Below are positions 18,610 through 26,645 of a stretch of 50,872 nucleotides of DNA, piece by piece. Position 1 is the stretch's first letter. The number at the start of each line of letters is the position of its first letter. The notes beneath the pieces are model-generated. The model had not been told where the DNA came from and made no database searches. It was given only the letters and a program-made list of their open reading frames with translations. The position numbers were made by a program, and so were the translations under genes. The stretch lies in the IMG/VR virus record IMGVR_UViG_3300005327_000005, positions 1 to 50,872 of that record. The stretch is one strand, 5' to 3'. The DNA comes from a virus.

Positions 18610-18836
18610 GAGCTGTACTCGGCGAAAAACCACTCCGCGTCGTCGTAACCCCAACCCCGCTCCTGCCACTCGTCGGCGAGCGACTGAAGCAGGGAATACA
18701 AACCGGAATGGCCGGCGGCGGTACCGACAAGAGTCAACGAATCGCCGACGGAGAAGAACACTCCGATATCGTGCCCCGGGGTCCAATTCGCTACCCGATC
18801 CTTCTCAACGATCGGATTGGGGAAATCGCACTCCAC
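18606..18836 (-). CDS. Hypothetical acidic protein (76 aa), first gene of the leftward block
   Basis: GTG at 18836 gives MECDFPNPIVEKDRVANWTP. Contains GVFFSVGDSLTLVGTAAG and an aromatic C-terminus (GWGYDDAEWFFAEYSS). No family recognised and only a weak ribosome-binding site. It is the first gene after the long non-coding region, so a late promoter probably lies upstream of it. Confidence 0.6.
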   Translation of the reverse strand: MECDFPNPIVEKDRVANWTPGHDIGVFFSVGDSLTLVGTAAGHSGLYSLLQSLADEWQERGWGYDDAEWFFAEYSS

Positions 18837-19817
18837 AATCGTTGGCCTGCCATTTCGTATTGTCGTAGGTGGATGAAGCTAATGGCGCGGGTCGATCTGT
18901 AATGGCGAGAAAAGAAATCGATCCGTAGCGGATGAATCTGGGTCCGGCACGGATCGGGGCGCTCCGCGCTCCCGGCTAACGGACGGTGAGGGATAATCCG
19001 GACACCCCTCCCCGTACGGGACGCCGATGTCACTCAGGGTCACAACCCGACATTACTCTCCGTAACTGTCAAGCCCCTGTGGATCTTGTCACTCACCATT
19101 CCGATGTGACATTTAGCATCGCCCAGAATTGTCAATAGTCTTCCTCAGTGGAGACCAGATAGGACTCATTGCCCGCGCGTACCGAATCGGACACTAGGGC
19201 GCATGGGTGATGCCGGCCCCACAATATGCGTTAGGTGATCTAGCTACCTACTGGCCTGCTACCCGCTGGCCAGACTGCTGTGTGGGTGGTGGCCCGCTGC
19301 TGTGGTGGTGGCCTGCCTAGCCTGCTGTGTGCCACGTAGAGCCCCGACATGGGCCGGCCTGAGGGTGAGTGTGGGTACGCGCATCTCACCTAGCACAGCC
19401 CATCTGAGGGTGTGACGTATTCGCGCATCGGACTCTAAGCGCAGTCGGCCCTATAGGTGAGTACTAGTACGACGCTAGTGTCGTAATAGGGCTACACTTC
19501 AAAACGCGGGTGCCGCTAGGCGCCAGCAGGCAGGGCAGCGTGGCAGTAGGAACTACCTCCATCGGGAGGCAAGCCACTCGCGGAATCGCTGTCATTGCTG
19601 GTTACTTGAGAACTACATAGAGGCACCACACCGCGCCAGCTAGGTAAGCGACGTGTGCGAGACCTATGAGTCCGCCATCGACTTGTCCGTCCCTTAAACC
19701 AGCCCAGCGGAGCAACACGAGTGACTTTCCATTACGGCGCATGTCCTGCCTTACCGCCTTAGGAATTGAGCGGTACGTGCGCCGGTATGGGTCAGTCAAT
19801 CGAAACGGAGAATGATC
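18837..19817. promoter_or_regulatory. 980-bp divergent non-coding region
   Basis: Separates the leftward late block from the rightward small-gene array. It holds no convincing gene. On the minus strand, TTGACA hexamers occur at 19135-19130 and 19072-19067, but neither has a convincing -10 at 17 bp. A cluster of related words (TGGCCTGCT, TGGCCCGCT, TGGCCTGCC, CTGCTGTG) fills 19248-19335. An inverted repeat TACGAC/GTCGTA lies near 19470. It is the obvious place for divergent promoters, but I cannot fix their positions. Confidence 0.6.
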
Positions 19818-20090
19818 ATGGCAATTGAAAACTTTGACGGTGGCACGATGATCACCGGTGAGCATGTCATGTTGTTTCATCACATGCGCATCGCGTCAGG
19901 CCTAGGGCTCGAGATCAGTACCGGTATGAAGATGAGCCGTCAGGGAAGCGTGATGCTGGTTGCCGCAAAGACGTGCGGAAGCACTAAGCGCACGAAGAAG
20001 GGCGTACTAGCTGACTACGTCGCATGGATGCAGTCGACGTACCCGGACTACAAGCCGGCGCCATCGGTACTCCGCGCGCTAGGTAAGTGA
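19818..20090 (+). CDS. Small early protein (90 aa)
   Basis: ATG at 19818 (MAIENFDGGTMITGEHVMLF) with AACGGAG upstream; an ATG six bases earlier is in frame but too close to that site. Helical middle, basic KTCGSTKRTKKG and a C-terminal YVAWMQSTYPDY. Third codon positions are less GC-rich than in the late genes. First of the rightward array of small genes; function unknown, host take-over is a guess from position. Confidence 0.72.
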   Translation: MAIENFDGGTMITGEHVMLFHHMRIASGLGLEISTGMKMSRQGSVMLVAAKTCGSTKRTKKGVLADYVAWMQSTYPDYKPAPSVLRALGK

Positions 20091-20105
20091 TAGGGCCGAT
20101 TCAGC

Positions 20106-20138
20106 AAGAGCCATCGGGCATTCCGTCCGATGGCTCTT
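20106..20138 (+). repeat. Intergenic stem-loop, family A copy 1
   Basis: 12-bp perfect stem AAGAGCCATCGG/CCGATGGCTCTT with a 9-base loop, preceded by GGGCCGATTCAGC and followed by GGATTTACCCTCAC and the next gene's GAACGGAG site. Nearly the same block occurs at 20801-20832. Confidence 0.85.
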
Positions 20139-20170
20139 ATGGATTTACCCTCACCGAACGGAGAAAGATC

Positions 20171-20473
20171 ATGATTCACGCACACATCGGCGAACGGGTC
20201 ACTGTAGAGCTGCCTTACTCAGAGGTCTGTATGCACATGCGTGTTGCCGGTAAGCGCATGGACGTTGAGGTACTGCCCGATGGTGCGCAGCTACTCAACG
20301 CGGATGGCAGCAAGTTTTCTTTCCCGATCACTCACGGGGAAGCCGGTATCCGCGCCATGGAACGCCACGACCCGGAATGCACGGCTTGTGAGCACGGGTG
20401 CCCATGGAAAGGCCGTCCGATGGGCGCGCCATTCTGCACAGTCTGTGATGACCATTGGGAAGCCGCCGCGTAA
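20171..20473 (+). CDS. Small early protein with Cys cluster (100 aa)
   Basis: ATG at 20171 follows GAACGGAGAAAG. Starts MIHAHIGERVTVELPYSEVC. The C-terminal region has CTACEHGCPW and PFCTVCDDHW, two zinc knuckles. Beta-rich N-terminal half. No known family. Flanked on both sides by family A stem-loops. Confidence 0.75.
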   Translation: MIHAHIGERVTVELPYSEVCMHMRVAGKRMDVEVLPDGAQLLNADGSKFSFPITHGEAGIRAMERHDPECTACEHGCPWKGRPMGAPFCTVCDDHWEAAA

Positions 20474-20486
20474 GGGCCGATTCAGC

Positions 20487-20519
20487 GACAGCCATCGGGC
20501 GCACAGTCCGATGGCTGTC
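20487..20519 (+). repeat. Intergenic stem-loop, family A copy 2
   Basis: 12-bp stem GACAGCCATCGG/CCGATGGCTGTC with a 9-base loop. Compared with copies 1 and 3, the second to fourth pairs change on both arms, keeping pairing. Same flanks as copy 1. Confidence 0.85.
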
Positions 20520-20550
20520 ATGGATTTACCCTCACGAACGGAGATCAGTA

Positions 20551-20787
20551 ATGGATATCGCAACGCTTAGTGACATTCGTAAGGAATGCGGCATCGCGGG
20601 TCACGTGGCCTATTCAGTCACTGTCACCTATGAGGGTGAGCCCTCGTCGCGGGTCACATTCATCGGGAACGTCGACGGGGGTCCGGTAATCATGGTGACG
20701 CCCGGTAACCCACGCGGAACATTCGTCAGTGACCCGGGGCGGTTCGGTTCGTTCGGTCCCGAGTGGGTCCGGCGCTTTTTCGCGTAA
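20551..20787 (+). CDS. Small early protein (78 aa)
   Basis: ATG at 20551 after GAACGGAG. Starts MDIATLSDIRKECGIAGHVA, followed by beta-strand-rich YSVTVTYEGEPSSRVTFIG and a Gly/Pro-rich end. No family recognised. Third gene of the array. Confidence 0.72.
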   Translation: MDIATLSDIRKECGIAGHVAYSVTVTYEGEPSSRVTFIGNVDGGPVIMVTPGNPRGTFVSDPGRFGSFGPEWVRRFFA

Positions 20788-20800
20788 GGGCCGATTCAGC

Positions 20801-20832
20801 AAGAGCCATCGGGCTAGCGTCCGATGGCTCTT
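20801..20832 (+). repeat. Intergenic stem-loop, family A copy 3
   Basis: Same AAGAGCCATCGG/CCGATGGCTCTT stem as copy 1 with an 8-base loop of different sequence. Flanks GGGCCGATTCAGC and ACCTACCCTCACGAA are conserved. Confidence 0.85.
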
Positions 20833-20864
20833 ATGGACCTACCCTCACGAAACGGAGAAAGATT

Positions 20865-21098
20865 ATGGAAGGCACCATTGTGAATTACCCGTACCTGTAC
20901 GCCTACGCGACGAACCGGACTGACGGTCTCGCGGTAGCTGTCGGCATCATCAGCGTTGACGGCGGCACGGCTGACGGTTCGTTCGCGCTGTTCCAGACTG
21001 CCGAGGATGCCGCATTCTTTGGCCGCGCGTACGCGGATGCGCACGGCGGCAGCTATGCCGACCTGCCGAGCATTCTCGATTCCGACTTGCTCGACTAA
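20865..21098 (+). CDS. Small early protein (77 aa)
   Basis: ATG at 20865 after AAACGGAG. Starts MEGTIVNYPYLYAYATNRTD, contains FALFQTAEDAAFFGRAYADA, and ends acidic (DSDLLD). No family recognised. The pattern of one strand-rich and one helical half suggests a single small alpha/beta domain. Confidence 0.72.
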   Translation: MEGTIVNYPYLYAYATNRTDGLAVAVGIISVDGGTADGSFALFQTAEDAAFFGRAYADAHGGSYADLPSILDSDLLD

Positions 21099-21113
21099 TC
21101 GAACCGGCTCAGC

Positions 21114-21148
21114 GACAGCCATCGGGCGCCCGATGTCCGATGGCTGTC
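21114..21148 (+). repeat. Intergenic stem-loop, family A copy 4
   Basis: GACAGCCATCGG/CCGATGGCTGTC stem as in copy 2, with an 11-base loop and more diverged flanks, followed by TGAACGGAG before the next gene. Confidence 0.83.
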
Positions 21149-21178
21149 ATGGGTTTATTCGATTGAACGGAGACAGCT

Positions 21179-21538
21179 ATGCGACGTATCAGCATCGACT
21201 ACGGCACCATTTGGGTCTGCCAGTGCTGCATGCTCTCCCACGCGAACGGCGAGTGCTGCCCTGATGACTCGCACGGGGGCGACGGTATCCAGCCCTGGGC
21301 GAACGTCGACTTCGACCGGTTCGCGGTGTGGATGGGTCTTGCCGCCGATGAGCACGACGAGGGTTGCGAGGTTCGCATCACTGGTGAGCACTCCGCTAAC
21401 GAGGAGTGCGAGTGCGACCGGAACACTTTCTCCACCTGGTCGTGCGAGGGATGCGGTTCGCACCTCGCCGGGGAGCGTCACGCTTTCACTCTCACCCGAG
21501 AGCAGCAGCGCTTCCCTCGTCCGATGCTTCCCGCCTGA
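21179..21538 (+). CDS. Cys-rich early protein (119 aa), zinc-binding
   Basis: Starts MRRISIDYGTIWVCQCCMLS after GAACGGAG. Nine or more Cys residues in CQCCMLSHANGECC, ECECDRNTFSTWSCEGCGSH. The final CEGCGSHLAGERHAFTL resembles a zinc ribbon seen in small actinobacterial proteins. Likely a zinc-binding nucleic-acid or protein-interaction factor. Confidence 0.78.
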   Translation: MRRISIDYGTIWVCQCCMLSHANGECCPDDSHGGDGIQPWANVDFDRFAVWMGLAADEHDEGCEVRITGEHSANEECECDRNTFSTWSCEGCGSHLAGERHAFTLTREQQRFPRPMLPA

Positions 21539-21553
21539 TTGTGGCGCTTCTGT

Positions 21554-21579
21554 CGGGCGTACGTGTGTACGTGCGCCCG
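21554..21579 (+). repeat. Intergenic stem-loop, family B copy 1
   Basis: CGGGCGTACGT/ACGTGCGCCCG pairs over 11 positions with one T-G wobble and a 4-base loop. It is preceded by GGCGCTTCTGT, a word repeated before other family B hairpins, and followed by TAACGGAGG. Confidence 0.75.
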
Positions 21580-21611
21580 GTGGTGGATTCACAACTAACG
21601 GAGGTAAGGCA

Positions 21612-21980
21612 ATGTTGTCATTCCACTGGTCGATTGATCGGGAGATTGATTCATCGGATCACAGCGACGAGGTGCCCGCGTACCCGCTATGGGTATGCGA
21701 GGCGGCCGACGATGCCGGCGAGGTTGTGGCATTGATGGGCGCGTGTGACTTTGGCCGGGATGGCGAGCCGTGGGATGCGTCCTCTGCCGAGTATCGGGCG
21801 GAGGTGGAGGAAGCGTTGCGCGCGGATGTTGTCGAGTCGTACCGGGCGGCAGCGCTGCGCATCGTCAGCGAGTGGGAGGACGCGCGGGGGGACGCCACTC
21901 AGGTTGTCCGGGCGTCGATGGTGCAAATGTTGGATGAGCTGCGCGATGTGATCCGGGCGGCAGAGGATGCCCGCGCCTGA
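21612..21980 (+). CDS. Acidic helical early protein (122 aa)
   Basis: ATG at 21612 after AACGGAGGTAAGGCA. Starts MLSFHWSIDREIDSSDHSDE. From residue 60 it is a long amphipathic helix region (YRAEVEEALRADVVESYRAA, LDELRDVIRAAEDARA). Strongly acidic, which could mean a DNA mimic or a protein-binding inhibitor, but this is speculation. Confidence 0.72.
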   Translation: MLSFHWSIDREIDSSDHSDEVPAYPLWVCEAADDAGEVVALMGACDFGRDGEPWDASSAEYRAEVEEALRADVVESYRAAALRIVSEWEDARGDATQVVRASMVQMLDELRDVIRAAEDARA

Positions 21981-22000
21981 CGCCTTGTAACGCTTCTGTC

Positions 22001-22023
22001 GGCGCCCGGTACCGCCGGGCGCC
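22001..22023 (+). repeat. Intergenic stem-loop, family B copy 2
   Basis: GGCGCCCGG/CCGGGCGCC 9-bp stem with a 5-base loop, preceded by AACGCTTCTGTC and followed by CAACGGAGG before the next gene. Confidence 0.75.
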
Positions 22024-22060
22024 GTAGGTGGCAGTGCAGGAACAACGGAGGGAACGAATC

Positions 22061-22477
22061 ATGTACGTGGCAGGCAACGAAGAGCTGCGCGCGGTTCGGC
22101 AGTACATCGTGGACCGGGCGACTCTCATCATCGACAACAACGAACCGCTGTACCGGCGGGTCCGCGCGGCGGCACTGGACGCGGTGCGGGAGGACATGGG
22201 TACCGGCTGGTCCCGCGATGACTTCGTGATGATGTTGAACGGGCGCGGGCAGACGGATCGGCGGGAGGTTGCCGACGTTGTAGGCCTTGCGGTGTGCAAC
22301 GTCATTGAGGAGTGGCTAGCGGCGGATGGTTCGTTGTACACCACAATGCTCGCCGATCTGCTGGACCTGGGCGATCGGGAGCAGGCGCGGATGTTCGGTG
22401 AGCACTTTATGCCGGAGGAGGAGGACTGGCCGGCGGACGAGGAGGAGGAGGAGGAGAAGGAGGAGAAGGATGCCTGA
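22061..22477 (+). CDS. Helical early protein with poly-Glu tail (138 aa)
   Basis: ATG at 22061 after CAACGGAGGGAACGAATC. Starts MYVAGNEELRAVRQYIVDRA. Mostly helical. The C-terminus is extremely acidic (DWPADEEEEEEKEEKDA), encoded by repeated GAG codons. Its 3' end overlaps the next start by 8 bp. Possible DNA mimic or chaperone-like interaction partner; no family recognised. Confidence 0.75.
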   Translation: MYVAGNEELRAVRQYIVDRATLIIDNNEPLYRRVRAAALDAVREDMGTGWSRDDFVMMLNGRGQTDRREVADVVGLAVCNVIEEWLAADGSLYTTMLADLLDLGDREQARMFGEHFMPEEEDWPADEEEEEEKEEKDA

Positions 22478-22679
22478 GATTAACTTTCGCCGAGTGAGCG
22501 CGGGTTTGTACCGCGACGCTGCCACCGGGTACACGATCGAACGTCAGGGCGGCGCGACGGGCCGACACGACCGGGCCGACTGGTACGTGATGAATCCGGA
22601 CCGCACCGTCATGCGGGTAAGTCAGGGCTTTGCGGAGGCGGAAATGGCGGCGCACAAGCTACTGGGCGATCACGCGTAA
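22470..22679 (+). CDS. Small early protein (69 aa)
   Basis: ATG at 22470 lies within the end of the previous gene, with GGAGGAGAAGG as its ribosome-binding site, so translation is coupled. Product MPEINFRRVSAGLYRDAATG, then YTIERQGGATGRHDRADWYV and a helical end. The order of strands and one helix resembles small single-domain proteins of unknown function. Confidence 0.72.
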   Translation: MPEINFRRVSAGLYRDAATGYTIERQGGATGRHDRADWYVMNPDRTVMRVSQGFAEAEMAAHKLLGDHA

Positions 22680-22702
22680 AGGCACCGCTTCTAGCCTGTC
22701 GT

Positions 22703-22720
22703 GCACCTCTGCGGAGGTGC
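22703..22720 (+). repeat. Intergenic stem-loop, family B copy 3
   Basis: GCACCTC/GAGGTGC 7-bp stem with a TGCG loop; ACCGCTTCTAGCC precedes and CAACGGAGG follows. Confidence 0.7.
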
Positions 22721-22768
22721 GCGGCAGAGGTGGCGCGGCGTCACTGATCAATCAACGGAGGTAAGACG

Positions 22769-23143
22769 ATGGACCCGATCATCCCGGGAATGTTTGTGCT
22801 GGATGTGACTGCCCGTAATGGCGTCCCGTTCCGTGCGCTGGCTATCGCGCGCGGCACGGAGGGACCTAACCCGTATCGGGCGCCGACCGATCACAAGCAC
22901 GCGATTGTGGAGTTTTACGACCGGCGGTACCCGATCGACGGGGAGCACGGCCAGTTTACGGGCGGCTATTACCACGTCGACACTGTGCTTGGCCGCGACG
23001 AGTACGCCCGGGGTGGCGACAGGGGCGGCCTGGACCTGAACGGGAGCGTCAAGGCCTGGACGGTGGACGCGGAGTCGATGTACGTCGTGCGGGCGTGGTT
23101 GACGCTACTGGCCGATGGTGGGCACCTGTCCCCGGTGGAGTAG
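22769..23143 (+). CDS. Early protein (124 aa)
   Basis: ATG at 22769 after CAACGGAGGTAAGACG. Starts MDPIIPGMFVLDVTARNGVP. Contains HAIVEFYDRRYPIDGEHGQF and GGYYHVDTVLGRDEY, then WTVDAESMYVVRAWLTLL. Beta-rich with a C-terminal helix. It may be a small SH3- or PH-like domain but I cannot name a family. Confidence 0.74.
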   Translation: MDPIIPGMFVLDVTARNGVPFRALAIARGTEGPNPYRAPTDHKHAIVEFYDRRYPIDGEHGQFTGGYYHVDTVLGRDEYARGGDRGGLDLNGSVKAWTVDAESMYVVRAWLTLLADGGHLSPVE

Positions 23144-23164
23144 GTACCGCTCCTAGCCCGTCCT

Positions 23165-23186
23165 GCACAACCCTCCGGGGTTGTGC
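23165..23186 (+). repeat. Intergenic stem-loop, family B copy 4
   Basis: GCACAACCC/GGGTTGTGC 9-bp stem with a TCCG tetraloop; ACCGCTCCTAGCCCG precedes, CAACGGAGGAG follows. Confidence 0.75.
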
Positions 23187-23234
23187 GGGCGCGGAGGTGG
23201 CGCGGTGCTACCTGATTCACAACGGAGGAGAAAC

Positions 23235-23408
23235 ATGATCGACAGTTTCGGGCAGCTCACTATCGAGATCACGCGCGGGCAGTTGGAGGCGTGGGCGGGC
23301 AGGACTCTGACGGATGACGAGGTGCGGCTGCTGGATGGCTGCGTGCCCGACTCTTCCATCCCGGACGCTATCGAGACCATCGTGTCGTCGATGGCGGGCA
23401 GCGCATGA
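23235..23408 (+). CDS. Small early protein (57 aa)
   Basis: ATG at 23235 after CAACGGAGGAGAAAC. Starts MIDSFGQLTIEITRGQLEAW. Acidic and helical (TLTDDEVRLLDGC). Its stop overlaps the next gene in an ATGATG junction, starting a run of coupled genes to 24360. Confidence 0.72.
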   Translation: MIDSFGQLTIEITRGQLEAWAGRTLTDDEVRLLDGCVPDSSIPDAIETIVSSMAGSA

Positions 23409-23617
23409 TGTTCGCGGCGCCGGTGGACTTCGAGCCGGGTATGTGGTTCAGGACGCACAAGGATGGCGCCCCGTTGCAGTGGCGCGGGGTCGAGCCCGTC
23501 GTCAGTCGGTTTGCCGGCAAGCAGCGGGTGCGGGTGTTGGTGGGTACGGGCGGGGTCGACTTCGTCTGTGACTCCGACCAGCGTTTTCAGATCATCGACT
23601 GGAGTGGTGGCAAGTGA
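23405..23617 (+). CDS. Small early protein (70 aa), SH3-like
   Basis: ATG at 23405 overlaps the previous stop. MFAAPVDFEPGMWFRTHKDG followed by basic strands (QRVRVLVGTGGVDFVCDSDQ) gives a small all-beta pattern. The stop overlaps the next GTG start. Unknown function. Confidence 0.7.
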   Translation: MMFAAPVDFEPGMWFRTHKDGAPLQWRGVEPVVSRFAGKQRVRVLVGTGGVDFVCDSDQRFQIIDWSGGK

Positions 23618-23745
23618 ATCTCGGCAACGTTTTCGAGTATGTGGCGACGAACGGGCATCCTGATCCGGTGCCGGGCTGGTTGCAAATCGCGGTGTGGCCG
23701 CTGTTGGTGTTGGTGGCGGTTTTGGCGCGGCCGAACAATGGCTGA
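23614..23745 (+). CDS. Micro membrane protein (43 aa)
   Basis: GTG at 23614 in a GTGA overlap gives NLGNVFEYVATNGHPDPVPG and then a hydrophobic helix WLQIAVWPLLVLVAVLA ending RPNNG. One transmembrane segment. The stop overlaps the next ATG. Confidence 0.6.
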   Translation: MNLGNVFEYVATNGHPDPVPGWLQIAVWPLLVLVAVLARPNNG

Positions 23746-24028
23746 CGTGCTGGTGATGCGGGTGTCGATTCCCCACGATGGTGGACCCATGGAGGGTGAT
23801 GTGGTGGCGGACCCGGACAAGTTGTTGACGGGTAGGGATGTGGCCCGCCTGTTGGGTATTGCGCCGCAGACGTGGCGTACGTATGTGATGCGGGGTCAGG
23901 CTCCGGCGCCGGATGATCCGGATGCGGGGACTCCGGTGAATCGGCGGGTGCCTCGGTGGCGTCTGTCGACGGTGCGGACGTATGTGCAGGGCCGGAAGCG
24001 CCGGGCGTGGAAGCTGCCGAAGAAGTGA
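23738..24028 (+). CDS. HTH DNA-binding protein (96 aa)
   Basis: ATG at 23738 overlaps the previous gene. The segment LLTGRDVARLLGIAPQTWRT followed by YVMRGQAPAPDD and RRVPRWRLSTVRTYVQG matches the AlpA/excisionase-type HTH layout (helix-turn-helix, then a wing carrying Arg-Trp). The C-terminus is strongly basic. A likely regulator of the early array or of excision; it is one of several HTH proteins in the genome. Confidence 0.78.
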   Translation: MADVLVMRVSIPHDGGPMEGDVVADPDKLLTGRDVARLLGIAPQTWRTYVMRGQAPAPDDPDAGTPVNRRVPRWRLSTVRTYVQGRKRRAWKLPKK

Positions 24029-24360
24029 GCGCCGACGACGAGGACGAGGTGATGTATATCCGCTTCGGTGACATTCCCGCCGGGGGTCGCAGTCTCAACC
24101 AGGAGACAGACACCTATGAGGCGGGGGTCAGCGTCTACCGGGCCGTGTGGGATTCGAAGGACCGGGATGTCGTCTCTGTGTTCGTCCCGTCGGAGATCTG
24201 TTGGGGGACTATCCGCGAGGTCATGGATCGGCCCGTCTACATCGTCACTGGCCGGGTGCTCGACGAGGTGGGCGGCGACGGAGAGCCGTTGATGGTCGAT
24301 GTTGTCGCGGAGTTGGTTGGCCCTGTCGAGGCCGTCAACTACTGCATCGAAGATGAGTGA
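24025..24360 (+). CDS. Acidic early protein (111 aa)
   Basis: GTG at 24025 overlaps the previous stop (GTGA); an ATG at 24052 is an alternative start with GAGGACGAGG before it. Contains YIRFGDIPAGGRSLNQETDT and repeated beta strands (VSVFVPSEICWG, VYIVTGRVLDEVGGD). Acidic ends. No family recognised. Confidence 0.68.
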   Translation: MSADDEDEVMYIRFGDIPAGGRSLNQETDTYEAGVSVYRAVWDSKDRDVVSVFVPSEICWGTIREVMDRPVYIVTGRVLDEVGGDGEPLMVDVVAELVGPVEAVNYCIEDE

Positions 24361-24362
24361 GG

Positions 24363-24422
24363 CTCCCCGTGCCCGCTGGTAGTGCGCCGGGTGGCGTAAC
24401 GCAGCCGGGCAGGCACGGGGAG
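24363..24422 (+). repeat. Intergenic long stem-loop
   Basis: CTCCCCGTGCC pairs with GGCACGGGGAG over 11 bp around a 38-base apical region that can fold further. It precedes the CAACGGAGGAGG site of the next gene, like the family A and B hairpins. Confidence 0.75.
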
Positions 24423-24456
24423 GATTATGGTGGCACCACAACGGAGGAGGGTGAGC

Positions 24457-24642
24457 ATGACAATCACTGACAGGGACGTCCGTGGGCAGGTGGCTGCGGC
24501 GTTGACTACCGGCGGCGAGGGTGTCGACATCGACGCGGTCACGCGGGACATCGTGTCGACGTACGGGCTGGTGGACATCGACAGCATCGAGAGCGAAGAG
24601 TTTTGGGAGCTGGTGCGTCGCCACGATGCCACTCAGCGGTAG
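24457..24642 (+). CDS. Small acidic early protein (61 aa)
   Basis: ATG at 24457 after CAACGGAGGAGGGTGAGC. Starts MTITDRDVRGQVAAALTTGG; short helices with VDIDAVTRDIVSTYG. Last gene of the rightward array, followed by a strong terminator. Function unknown. Confidence 0.72.
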   Translation: MTITDRDVRGQVAAALTTGGEGVDIDAVTRDIVSTYGLVDIDSIESEEFWELVRRHDATQR

Positions 24643-24656
24643 CGGCAACAGAGGGA

Positions 24657-24685
24657 CCCCGGCGGGTGACTGCCGGGGTTTTTTT
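24657..24685 (+). terminator. Intrinsic terminator ending the small-gene array
   Basis: CCCCGGC-GGGTGACT-GCCGGGG followed by seven T residues. The convergent gene ends at 24690. Confidence 0.9.
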
Positions 24686-24689
24686 GTGC

Positions 24690-24974
24690 CTATTCGTCGG
24701 TGGTGTAGCTGCCTTCGGTGTCGCCGATCTGCCGGGAGCGGACTACGTATGTATCGTCGCCATCCAGATTCACCGATAGATTCACGGTGCCGCTGTTGTC
24801 GTCGACGGTGCCGGTGTCGCCGGTGTCTACGGTGCTGATGACTCGGGCGGGGAGGGTGTCGCCGGCGGTGACTTTGGCGGCGATCTTCGGCCCTAGTTGC
24901 ATGCGAATGGCGTTGATGTCGTCTTGGTTCAGCTTGTAGTGGACGACGGCGCCGACGCCGGGTGTTCTGGGCAT
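24690..24974 (-). CDS. Hypothetical beta-rich protein (94 aa)
   Basis: Starts MPRTPGVGAVVHYKLNQDDI. Contains GPKIAAKVTAGDTLPARVIS and Asp/Thr/Gly-rich strands (VDTGDTGTVDDNSGTVNLSV). Convergent with the early array and divergent from the AMIN-like gene. No function recognised. Confidence 0.72.
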   Translation of the reverse strand: MPRTPGVGAVVHYKLNQDDINAIRMQLGPKIAAKVTAGDTLPARVISTVDTGDTGTVDDNSGTVNLSVNLDGDDTYVVRSRQIGDTEGSYTTDE

Positions 24975-25062
24975 TGTTGTGTCTCCGTTTCGGATGGGGC
25001 GGGCGAAGATGGGAGGATGCTGTGAGAGGACCTCTACCCCCCTTTTTCAGGAGGCACGGAAA

Positions 25063-25593
25063 ATGTTTCGTCTTGTTGGGCGGGCGCTTATCGCGCTTGC
25101 CACCATTGGCACTGTCGCTGTCGGTATCGCTCCGGCTCAGGCGGCCCCGGTGGCGTCGGCCCCGACTTCCGTTGTCGCGCGTAATGACGACGACGATGTA
25201 GCCACTCCCCGGCTGGTCGATATCGACTTTGACCGTCGGCGCAATGCGGATCGGGTGACGTTCCGTTTCCGCGGCGGCGTCCCCGATGATGTGTCGGCTC
25301 GCCTGGTGCGTACGGTGCGGGACCGGGATGGTGACCGGGTGCGTCTGCCGGGTAACCGTTTCCTGGTGCTGCGTTTCGATGAGGCCACCGCGCGGGGCTT
25401 CGACACCGATGTGATCGATTCGGATCTGCGGACTGTGGTCGCTGCTCGGCTGGTCGACGATGGCCGGCGCGATGAGGTTGTCCGGGTGGCTCTGGGTCTG
25501 CGCCGGTTCTCCGACGTCCGCGATGTGCGGGTGTTCGAGGGCCGGAACCGGATCACTGTGGATGTGCTGCGGGACCGCGACCGGGACCGGTAA
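25063..25593 (+). CDS. Secreted AMIN-like domain protein
   Basis: 176 residues. ATG at 25063 has AGGAGG 11 bases upstream. Residues 1-27 form a Sec signal peptide (basic MFRLVGR, hydrophobic core ALIALATIGTVAVGI, cleavage-type APAQA-A). The mature part has ADRVTFRFRGGVPDDVSARL, GNRFLVLRFDEATARGF, ALGLRRFSDVRDVRVFEG and a final ITVDVL strand. This order matches AMIN-like domains of actinobacterial exported proteins. It sits alone with its own upstream gap and terminator between minus-strand genes, as expected for a lysogeny-expressed moron. Cell-surface change or superinfection exclusion is a hypothesis. Confidence 0.78.
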   Translation: MFRLVGRALIALATIGTVAVGIAPAQAAPVASAPTSVVARNDDDDVATPRLVDIDFDRRRNADRVTFRFRGGVPDDVSARLVRTVRDRDGDRVRLPGNRFLVLRFDEATARGFDTDVIDSDLRTVVAARLVDDGRRDEVVRVALGLRRFSDVRDVRVFEGRNRITVDVLRDRDRDR

Positions 25594-25607
25594 GCATTGA
25601 CGAAGAG

Positions 25608-25637
25608 GCCCCGGCGGGTGACTGCCGGGGCTTCTTT
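25608..25637 (+). terminator. Terminator after AMIN-like gene
   Basis: GCCCCGGC/GCCGGGGC stem with the loop GGGTGACT and then TTCTTT. Stem core and loop are identical to the terminator at 24657-24685. Confidence 0.85.
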
Positions 25638-25641
25638 GCGT

Positions 25642-25995
25642 CTACCGGGCGTTCCATCCTCCGGGCTGGTGCTTGCCGGTCTCTTGCGAGTGGCAGGAGT
25701 GGCACAGTGGCCGCAGGTGCCGATCAGCATGCGGGTCGGGGTTGCGTTGCAGGATGAGCAGCCGGATTCCGCGGGGGTGGTGGTCGGCAACGGATGCCAT
25801 TCGGCCGCAGAGCAGGCACCAGGGGTGGCGGCAGAGGTATTCGAGGCGGATGCGGGGCCAGTCGTCTCCGTAGAGCTCACGCCAGTGGGTGCGTTGTTGG
25901 CCGGCGAGTTTGGTGTGCCATTCGCAGCGTCCACCGAGGACCCTGTTGGGGCAGCCGGGGGAGGTGCACGGCTTCAGTGGGTGACTGGTCACCAC
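25642..25995 (-). CDS. HNH endonuclease
   Basis: 117 residues from GTG 25995 (GGAGGAG upstream). Zinc cysteines in KPCTSPGCPNRV, RCEWH, CRHPWCLLCGR and LCHSCHSQE, and the HNH core VADHHPRG...ADRHLRPLCHSCH. HK97-type phages often carry an HNH nuclease that assists terminase cutting at cos; here it closes the early operon and is 12 kb from the terminase genes, so that role is only a possibility. Confidence 0.9.
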   Translation of the reverse strand: MVTSHPLKPCTSPGCPNRVLGGRCEWHTKLAGQQRTHWRELYGDDWPRIRLEYLCRHPWCLLCGRMASVADHHPRGIRLLILQRNPDPHADRHLRPLCHSCHSQETGKHQPGGWNAR

Positions 25996-26056
25996 TGGGT
26001 GCTCCTCCCCCGGCTACCGTCTCGCCCGCCAACGGAGAGGAAAACGGGCGAGAGAT

Positions 26057-26293
26057 CTATTCGGTGGTGCGTTGCCGGGGTAGCGTCCGGGCGCGGTGTT
26101 CAGCTTCGGCCTGGCGCTGGCGGGCTTCGGTGAGTGCCGTGACGTATTCGTCTTTGTTCATGATCCGTGAGTAGACGCCGCACCAGGCGCATCCGGCTTC
26201 TCCGTAGGAGACGTCGATGACGTTGTGCGGGTCTTGCACTCCGAGGCAGTAGACGCAGCGGGTTTGCATGGCGATGCGCTTGGGATCCATCAT
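26057..26293 (-). CDS. Small zinc protein (78 aa)
   Basis: Starts MMDPKRIAMQTRCVYCLGVQ. Two CxxC knuckles, CVYCLG and CAWCGV, about 20 residues apart, fit a zinc ribbon. The C-terminal helix is charged (YVTALTEARQRQAEAEHRAR). The ATG overlaps the upstream gene stop. Unknown function. Confidence 0.78.
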   Translation of the reverse strand: MMDPKRIAMQTRCVYCLGVQDPHNVIDVSYGEAGCAWCGVYSRIMNKDEYVTALTEARQRQAEAEHRARTLPRQRTTE

Positions 26294-26472
26294 CGTTTGT
26301 CCCTCTTGGCTTCCCGCCGCTCGTCGACGTAGAGCAGGACGAGGGTGGTGACGAGTAGCGCGATGAGGCCGCTGCGCCAGATCCCGACGAACGGGTAGAG
26401 GGTGAGGACGGTGACGCCGGCGACGGGGGCGGCAATGATGACGTTGGTGGCGAACCGATGTCGGAGGCTCAT
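26290..26472 (-). CDS. Small membrane protein (60 aa)
   Basis: Starts MSLRHRFATNVIIAAPVAGV. Two predicted transmembrane helices (VIIAAPVAGVTVLTLYPFV and SGLIALLVTTLVLLYV) with a basic C-terminal tail RREAKRDKR. Coupled to its neighbours by 4-bp overlaps. Role unknown. Confidence 0.72.
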   Translation of the reverse strand: MSLRHRFATNVIIAAPVAGVTVLTLYPFVGIWRSGLIALLVTTLVLLYVDERREAKRDKR

Positions 26473-26645
26473 TGTTTGCGCCTGATGATCCGGAAGCGGG
26501 GATGCTTGCGCTGATTGGTGAGGGCGTTGATCACCAGTGGCGAGGATACGGGCGCCTCATTTTCGAGCCATTCCCGGATTGACTCGTATGCCGGGTGCCA
26601 TTGGTTCGCCGGCCAGTGTTCAGCGTGGTTACCTTTTCCGCTCAT
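26469..26645 (-). CDS. Small basic protein (58 aa)
   Basis: ATG 26645, starting MSGKGNHAEHWPANQWHPAY, Trp-rich N-terminus, then SIREWLENEAPVSSPLVINA and a basic end FRIIRRKQ. It lies inside the operon with overlap to the downstream gene and 17-bp overlap with the upstream gene. No family recognised. Confidence 0.65.
   Translation of the reverse strand: MSGKGNHAEHWPANQWHPAYESIREWLENEAPVSSPLVINALTNQRKHPRFRIIRRKQ

Follow-up and report, generated by a model that had tools for sequence, protein, structure and literature searches.

Covarying RNA hairpins between the genes of a putative early array in a temperate-phage contig

RNase III is described as producing the early RNAs of phage T7 by cutting a precursor (Dunn and Studier 1973, as cited in PMC5371410), and the T7 R1.1 site, located between early genes 1.0 and 1.1, is a 60-nt RNA whose structure includes an asymmetric internal loop (PMC6121014). 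RNase III also acts on mRNA in an actinobacterium, as shown for Streptomyces AbsB (PMC2936110). Actinophages have many start-associated repeats whose role is unknown; in the best-studied case, pairing at the RNA level was considered unlikely. The start-associated sequence (SAS) of cluster K is a conserved 13-bp word, GGGATAGGAGCCC, near start codons, for which pairing to rRNA is not a full explanation, while the extended SAS (ESAS) are sequence-conserved 17-bp imperfect inverted repeats for which RNA pairing is reported to be unsupported (PMC3203893). Here I describe a set of elements found in IMG/VR virus record IMGVR_UViG_3300005327_000005, the whole of which (50,872 bases) is hereafter called the window. 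The array in question consists of small plus-strand genes of unknown function (19818-24642) and encodes intercistronic RNA hairpins. These hairpins, hereafter called rods, share one design but belong to three or more families by sequence (A, B and C).

The window is a contig of a temperate soil phage that probably represents a complete genome, since a 40-base direct repeat is present at its termini. Terminase, portal, capsid and tail-fibre genes lie on its minus strand; it also encodes a tyrosine integrase (Phage_integrase and Phage_int_M domain matches) and one tRNA. The position of the array and the small size of its genes suggest that it is the early region. Among isolates, the relatives by terminase are Pseudonocardiales prophages (54-61% identity), which points to an actinobacterial, perhaps pseudonocardial, host. 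The array has nine intergenic gaps of 73-96 nt, each of which contains one dominant hairpin, and a tenth, weaker rod precedes the first gene; the array genes without an upstream hairpin are those that overlap or abut the preceding gene. An earlier interpretation of the window, the sequence-only reading, had proposed that a stem-loop plus the word AACGGAG precedes every unlinked gene of the array. This holds at nine of nine separated junctions, together with the weaker rod at the first gene, and the observation as a whole proved stronger than claimed. The five further hairpins of different sequence that it listed are likewise present, as the rods of families B, C and D (Table 1).

Raw folding energy is uninformative because the GC content is high, and the rods were therefore judged by z-scores and covariation. 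The z-scores of the family A copies range from -6.7 to -8.5, as low as none of 900 random windows, those of the family C copies are -5.1 and -5.3 (1 of 900 random windows equally low), and those of the B, D and leader rods lie between -3.7 and -4.1 (4-7 of 900). The inner stems of the four family A rods start close to 20106, 20487, 20801 and 21114, where the sequence-only reading had located them. From the base inwards, the family A fold comprises P1 (GGG/CCC plus one pair), a 2x2 loop CC/TA, P2 (GATTCA/TGGATT), a 2x1 loop and a 14-bp P3 capped by a loop of variable length. P1 and P2 are the sequences previously taken for shared flanks: they are indeed conserved, but are themselves base-paired strands. 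The compensatory changes already noticed in the stem, AAGAGCC..GGCTCTT versus GACAGCC..GGCTGTC, are real. In an alignment of six sequences (the four window copies plus one each from the relatives L016 and L019), 96.5% of the cells are paired and 10 of 24 pairs have changed on both sides; this covariation is reached by none of 500 shuffles, and slid controls fall to 32-47% paired. Internal-loop positions and some bases flanking the loops are conserved within a family. The two stem types follow one another in the order 1,2,1,2 along 20092-21163, so that the stems of neighbouring copies can neither cross-pair nor recombine perfectly; the alternation may prevent mispairing, or may be due to chance. 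A promoter reading of ATGGATTTA, which is conserved in family A, was rejected, as this sequence forms the 3' side of a helix that covaries, and no -35 stands at a fixed distance from it.

Relatives with the same rod design were found through their terminase (77-90% identity), and their genes were called with a simple purpose-written caller. Family C is present in six phages, namely the window and G001-G005. In the alignment of nine family C sequences, 92.3% of the cells are paired and both sides have changed in 11 of 23 pairs, a result matched by at most 1 of 500 shuffles. A covariance model built from these nine sequences (R2) matches two copies outside the training set, one at L101:3788-3858 (38 bits) and the other at L099:1827-1891 (52 bits); in the latter, which is followed by AAACGGAG, the outer helix is completely re-paired as GGTTCGC/GCGAACT. 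Support is weaker for family B, with five members, 83.8% paired cells and double changes at 5 pairs. These figures come from small numbers of sequences per family (5 to 9), and the E-values of the covariance models are rough. Rod type is retained at orthologous junctions, as exemplified by the family B rod upstream of gene 22061-22477 (Table 1). The genome G001 (L009) has an extra pair of nested hairpins, in which the outer helices CTGTGTG/CACACAG are common and the inner ones differ (CCTG/CAGG versus CCAG/CTGG). The covariation in families A and C strongly supports the selection for pairing put forward by the sequence-only reading: related phages have kept the pairing even where the sequence, the length of the loop or a whole helix has been replaced. 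Loss of conserved pairing in related phages would have counted against that reading, and the relatives keep it. The words CGCTTCT and CGCTCCT, also pointed out earlier, do stand ahead of four of the five further hairpins; they belong to the folded 5' strand and do not form a separate word.

These comparisons bear on whether the rods act as DNA or as RNA. An operator or stoperator dyad, a recombination hotspot or a cassette boundary would suit copies repeated between shuffled small genes, the gene content between rods being variable among relatives. Such DNA-level roles are nevertheless highly improbable, because loop lengths vary, whole helices are exchanged with pairing retained, and the sense strand is rich in G-U pairs (102, as against 44 for the antisense strand); in addition, the families have no DNA word in common and no integron-type GTT/AAC core. 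Integron attC-like cassette sites were rejected: no RYYYAAC/GTTRRRY pair surrounds the rods in the gap sequences, read by eye, relatives lack AAC before GGAG, and the integrase is of the Phage_integrase/Phage_int_M type. The 17/18-bp inverted repeats of clusters O and EG, which are likewise dispersed and often intergenic, are short sequence-invariant DNA palindromes, unlike the long sequence-variable RNA of the rods. The sense strand folds better than the antisense strand in 23 of 26 elements, beyond what is seen in shuffles (p=0.006), but composition accounts for -4.5 of the mean difference of -7.4 kcal/mol, so that this difference is supporting evidence only.

Across families, the rods measure 59.9 +/- 3.7 nt and contain 18-27 bp with small internal loops (24 elements). 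Nearly all start 0-3 nt past the stop codon, and they end just before the Shine-Dalgarno (SD) sequence, which is left unpaired. A shape criterion that was set after the elements had been seen (at least 21 bp, start at most 3 nt from the stop codon, 53-67 nt) selects 20 of 26 elements, versus 3.7% of shuffles. Under a strict criterion, eight of the nine array gaps of the window qualify; under a looser single criterion, likewise set with the elements already known, 8 of 18 window gaps do so, every one inside the array. The looser criterion selects 2/18 gaps in phiC31, 1/21 in TM4, 0/13 in Bask21, 1/18 in SilentRX and 0/16 in VWB, as well as 4/39 in four IMG/VR contigs of more distant relationship and 6/74 among prophage gaps; rods thus occupy about 7% of gaps in other actinophages and prophages.

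The early region of Streptomyces phage phiC31 is said to contain tail-less terminators, reportedly described by Ingham et al. in 1995. The rods could similarly terminate or attenuate transcription between early genes without a U-tract, in which case a phage factor might override them in lytic growth. Their strength and stability, and their location in the gaps of an actinophage's early region, would suit such a role, and strong hairpins free of U-runs are found in phiC31 gaps (24305, 31149). The resemblance is partial, as phiC31 gaps are mixed, with promoter-like repeats, operators and poly-U terminators. The rods do not qualify as intrinsic terminators, for no U-tract directly follows the stem: the 8 nt 3' of the rod contain 0-3 T (mean 1.8, 23 elements), in a phage that possesses ordinary T-tailed terminators (24658, 25606). 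Moreover, the ~20 nt from rod to start codon leave no space for a promoter, a single promoter-like site was found in 18800-26500 versus 1.7 expected, and termination needs neither a uniform 60-nt length nor internal loops near the base. Tail-less termination is therefore an unlikely role. Near-identical intrinsic terminators, CCCCGGCGGGTGACTGCCGGGG with a T-rich tail, are located at 24658-24686 and 25606-25633, on either side of 24690-25593, and a similar terminator core is present in the L019 contig.

The word AACGGAG stands ~6-10 nt ahead of the start codon of exactly ten plus-strand genes, the number given by the sequence-only reading. It occurs 12 times window-wide versus 7.1 expected, a mild enrichment (2 of 100 shuffles), and its non-random feature is its placement. 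The sole minus-strand gene with the word, 24690-24974 (region 24974-24990, reverse strand), adjoins the array; no rod was noticed ahead of it, although none was specifically sought there. AACGGAG includes the SD core GGAG at normal spacing, and the corresponding start words in relatives are GTGGAG (G004, G005), GGGAGGC (G001) and, once, AAACGGAG (G002). AACGGAG is a phage-specific ribosome binding site, uniform within the array, and not a mycobacteriophage SAS. The likeness to such sequences that had been suggested holds for position only. As in the SAS/ESAS of cluster K and the SAS of Microbacterium cluster EF, a repeated motif marks the starts of separated non-structural genes and has an inverted-repeat element upstream, the element being uniform in one phage and different between related phages. 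By contrast, the start word is a plain SD variant that differs among relatives and is not GGGATAGGAGCCC, and the upstream element, unlike ESAS, is a ~60-nt rod whose covariation-supported pairing is the conserved feature. The rods and the start word are thus not a SAS/ESAS system.

The early RNase III sites of T7 (R0.3-R1.3) are, like the rods, irregular hairpins of ~60 nt with internal loops that lie in early gaps, immediately ahead of the following gene's ribosome binding site, and lack a U-tract; folding of the T7 1.2-1.3 gap likewise produced an irregular rod similar to those of the window. Because these sites are the closest known in shape, size and place, the reading I favour, tentatively and with less than even confidence, is that the rods are intercistronic processing or segmentation signals; RNA processing was also among the roles suggested by the sequence-only reading. 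They would act within the early polycistronic mRNA, where a host double-strand ribonuclease of the RNase III type would cut or bind the rod. Each unlinked gene would thereby come to lie on a separate mRNA segment, protected at the 3' end by the hairpin that follows, and the next gene would begin with a short leader in which the SD is exposed, as at the early R sites of T7. The word AACGGAG would be the mere SD of each segment, and transcription would stop at the true poly-U terminator that closes the array. Several points weigh against this proposal. RNase III is not specifically demanded by the sequence, and other readers of double-stranded RNA or plain stability effects would select the same shape; the T7 sites have no sequence relation to the rods; the covariation of family B is weak; and the shape criterion was chosen post hoc. 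The rods further differ from the T7 sites in forming at least three families, in their strong covariation and in belonging to an actinophage clade.

Two other RNA-level roles have to be considered. A translational insulator or bridge, in which the rod juxtaposes the stop codon and the next SD, or stops ribosome run-on, and so permits independent or hopping initiation, would account for a gap filled from stop codon to SD, for the unpaired SD and for the lack of a rod at genes linked by overlapping start and stop. Yet it does not require a fixed length near 60 nt, and since a terminating ribosome covers and melts the outer helix, selection on that helix is harder to explain; I regard this role as quite unlikely. 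Binding sites for a phage RNA-binding regulator, with the early array as its regulon, would be consistent with up to ten rods per phage and with the bases conserved in and around the internal loops of a family. However, at least three families of unrelated sequence share one array, so that no single sequence-specific protein would read them all, and PHROGs/Pfam gave no RNA-binding candidate among the array genes; this possibility is very unlikely. The dispersed regulon envisaged by the sequence-only reading is not borne out, the rods being restricted to one co-directional array per phage.

With pairing shown by covariation in six phages, the question narrows to the identity of the nuclease or factor by which a 60-nt rod is read. 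Were the rods processing sites, segmentation of early messages would reach from T7-like phages to GC-rich actinophages, and ready-made RNA insulators would be available for actinobacterial expression work. A broader, rather unlikely, reading is that this actinophage clade keeps a general, sequence-independent RNA punctuation, in which fixed-length rods of ~60 nt made of interchangeable helices bound any separated early gene. The rods would be recognised purely by their shape, and a newly acquired gene could be taken in as a ready-made segment for expression.

Table 1. Positions of the rods, start words and array terminator in the window
Feature	Position	Strand	Evidence and remarks
Leader rod, before first array gene	19718..19802	+	fold, z -4.1, 4/900 random windows equally low; weakest member, may be 5' untranslated region
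Family A rod 1, AAGAGCC/GGCTCTT type	20092..20151	+	fold, covariation; z -6.7
Family A rod 2, GACAGCC/GGCTGTC type	20473..20532	+	fold, covariation; z -8.5; last base of stop codon in outer helix
Family A rod 3, AAGAGCC/GGCTCTT type	20787..20845	+	fold, covariation; z -6.8
Family A rod 4, GACAGCC/GGCTGTC type	21096..21163	+	fold, covariation; z -6.8; entire outer helix swapped for AATCGAA/TTCGATT
Family B rod 1	21539..21594	+	fold of gap minus SD part, z -3.8; alignment
Family B rod 2, before gene 22061-22477	21984..22040	+	fold; alignment; family B rod also before orthologues in G004, G005
Family C rod 1	22681..22742	+	fold, covariation; R2 match 83 bits
Family C rod 2	23144..23208	+	fold, covariation; R2 match 66.6 bits
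Family D rod	24363..24422	+	fold; compensatory change GTGCC/GGCAC to GCGCC/GGCGC at orthologous L019 junction
AACGGAG of gene 19818-20090	19804..19810	+	
AACGGAG of gene 20171-20473	20157..20163	+	
AACGGAG of gene 20551-20787	20537..20543	+	
AACGGAG of gene 20865-21098	20851..20857	+	
AACGGAG of gene 21179-21538	21166..21172	+	
AACGGAG of gene 21612-21980	21597..21603	+	
AACGGAG of gene 22061-22477	22044..22050	+	
AACGGAG of gene 22769-23143	22754..22760	+	
AACGGAG of gene 23235-23408	23221..23227	+	
AACGGAG of gene 24457-24642	24440..24446	+	
Canonical poly-U intrinsic terminator closing the array, CCCCGGCGGGTGACTGCCGGGGTTTTTTT	24658..24686	+	T-rich tail, unlike rods

Across 299 genomes of the order Pseudonocardiales R2 gave no match, a weak negative as 16 candidates per genome were scored. 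No such array was seen in the more distant relatives or Pseudonocardiales prophages examined (terminase 54-61%). A BLASTN search with the array and with the rods returned no real relatives among 50,697 phage records, and Rfam 15 gave no match at E<=1 within 19500-24700 and the tRNA alone window-wide; these negatives mean only that nothing similar lies within those databases. The matches from P0001 and the DNA-pattern scan (L005-L008, L091, L093, L094, L115, L118-L120, L207) were rejected as chance.

In G001, a further hairpin family (L111 3365-3450 and 3685-3771, reverse strand) combines a conserved outer helix and AGTGTGA loop with swapped inner helices. A conserved GC-rich hairpin, GTGGCGCGGCG...CGCCGCGCCAC, unrelated to the window rods, is common to Amycolatopsis and Labedaea prophages (L123 20292, L124 19309, L125 19426, L126 20571), where the gap that contains it lies ~8-9 kb downstream from the terminase. 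Lastly, gene 22061-22477 ends in a GAG/GAAG repeat (22420-22477) encoding a Glu-rich tail without counterpart in its two orthologues, and the gene that follows starts inside its end.

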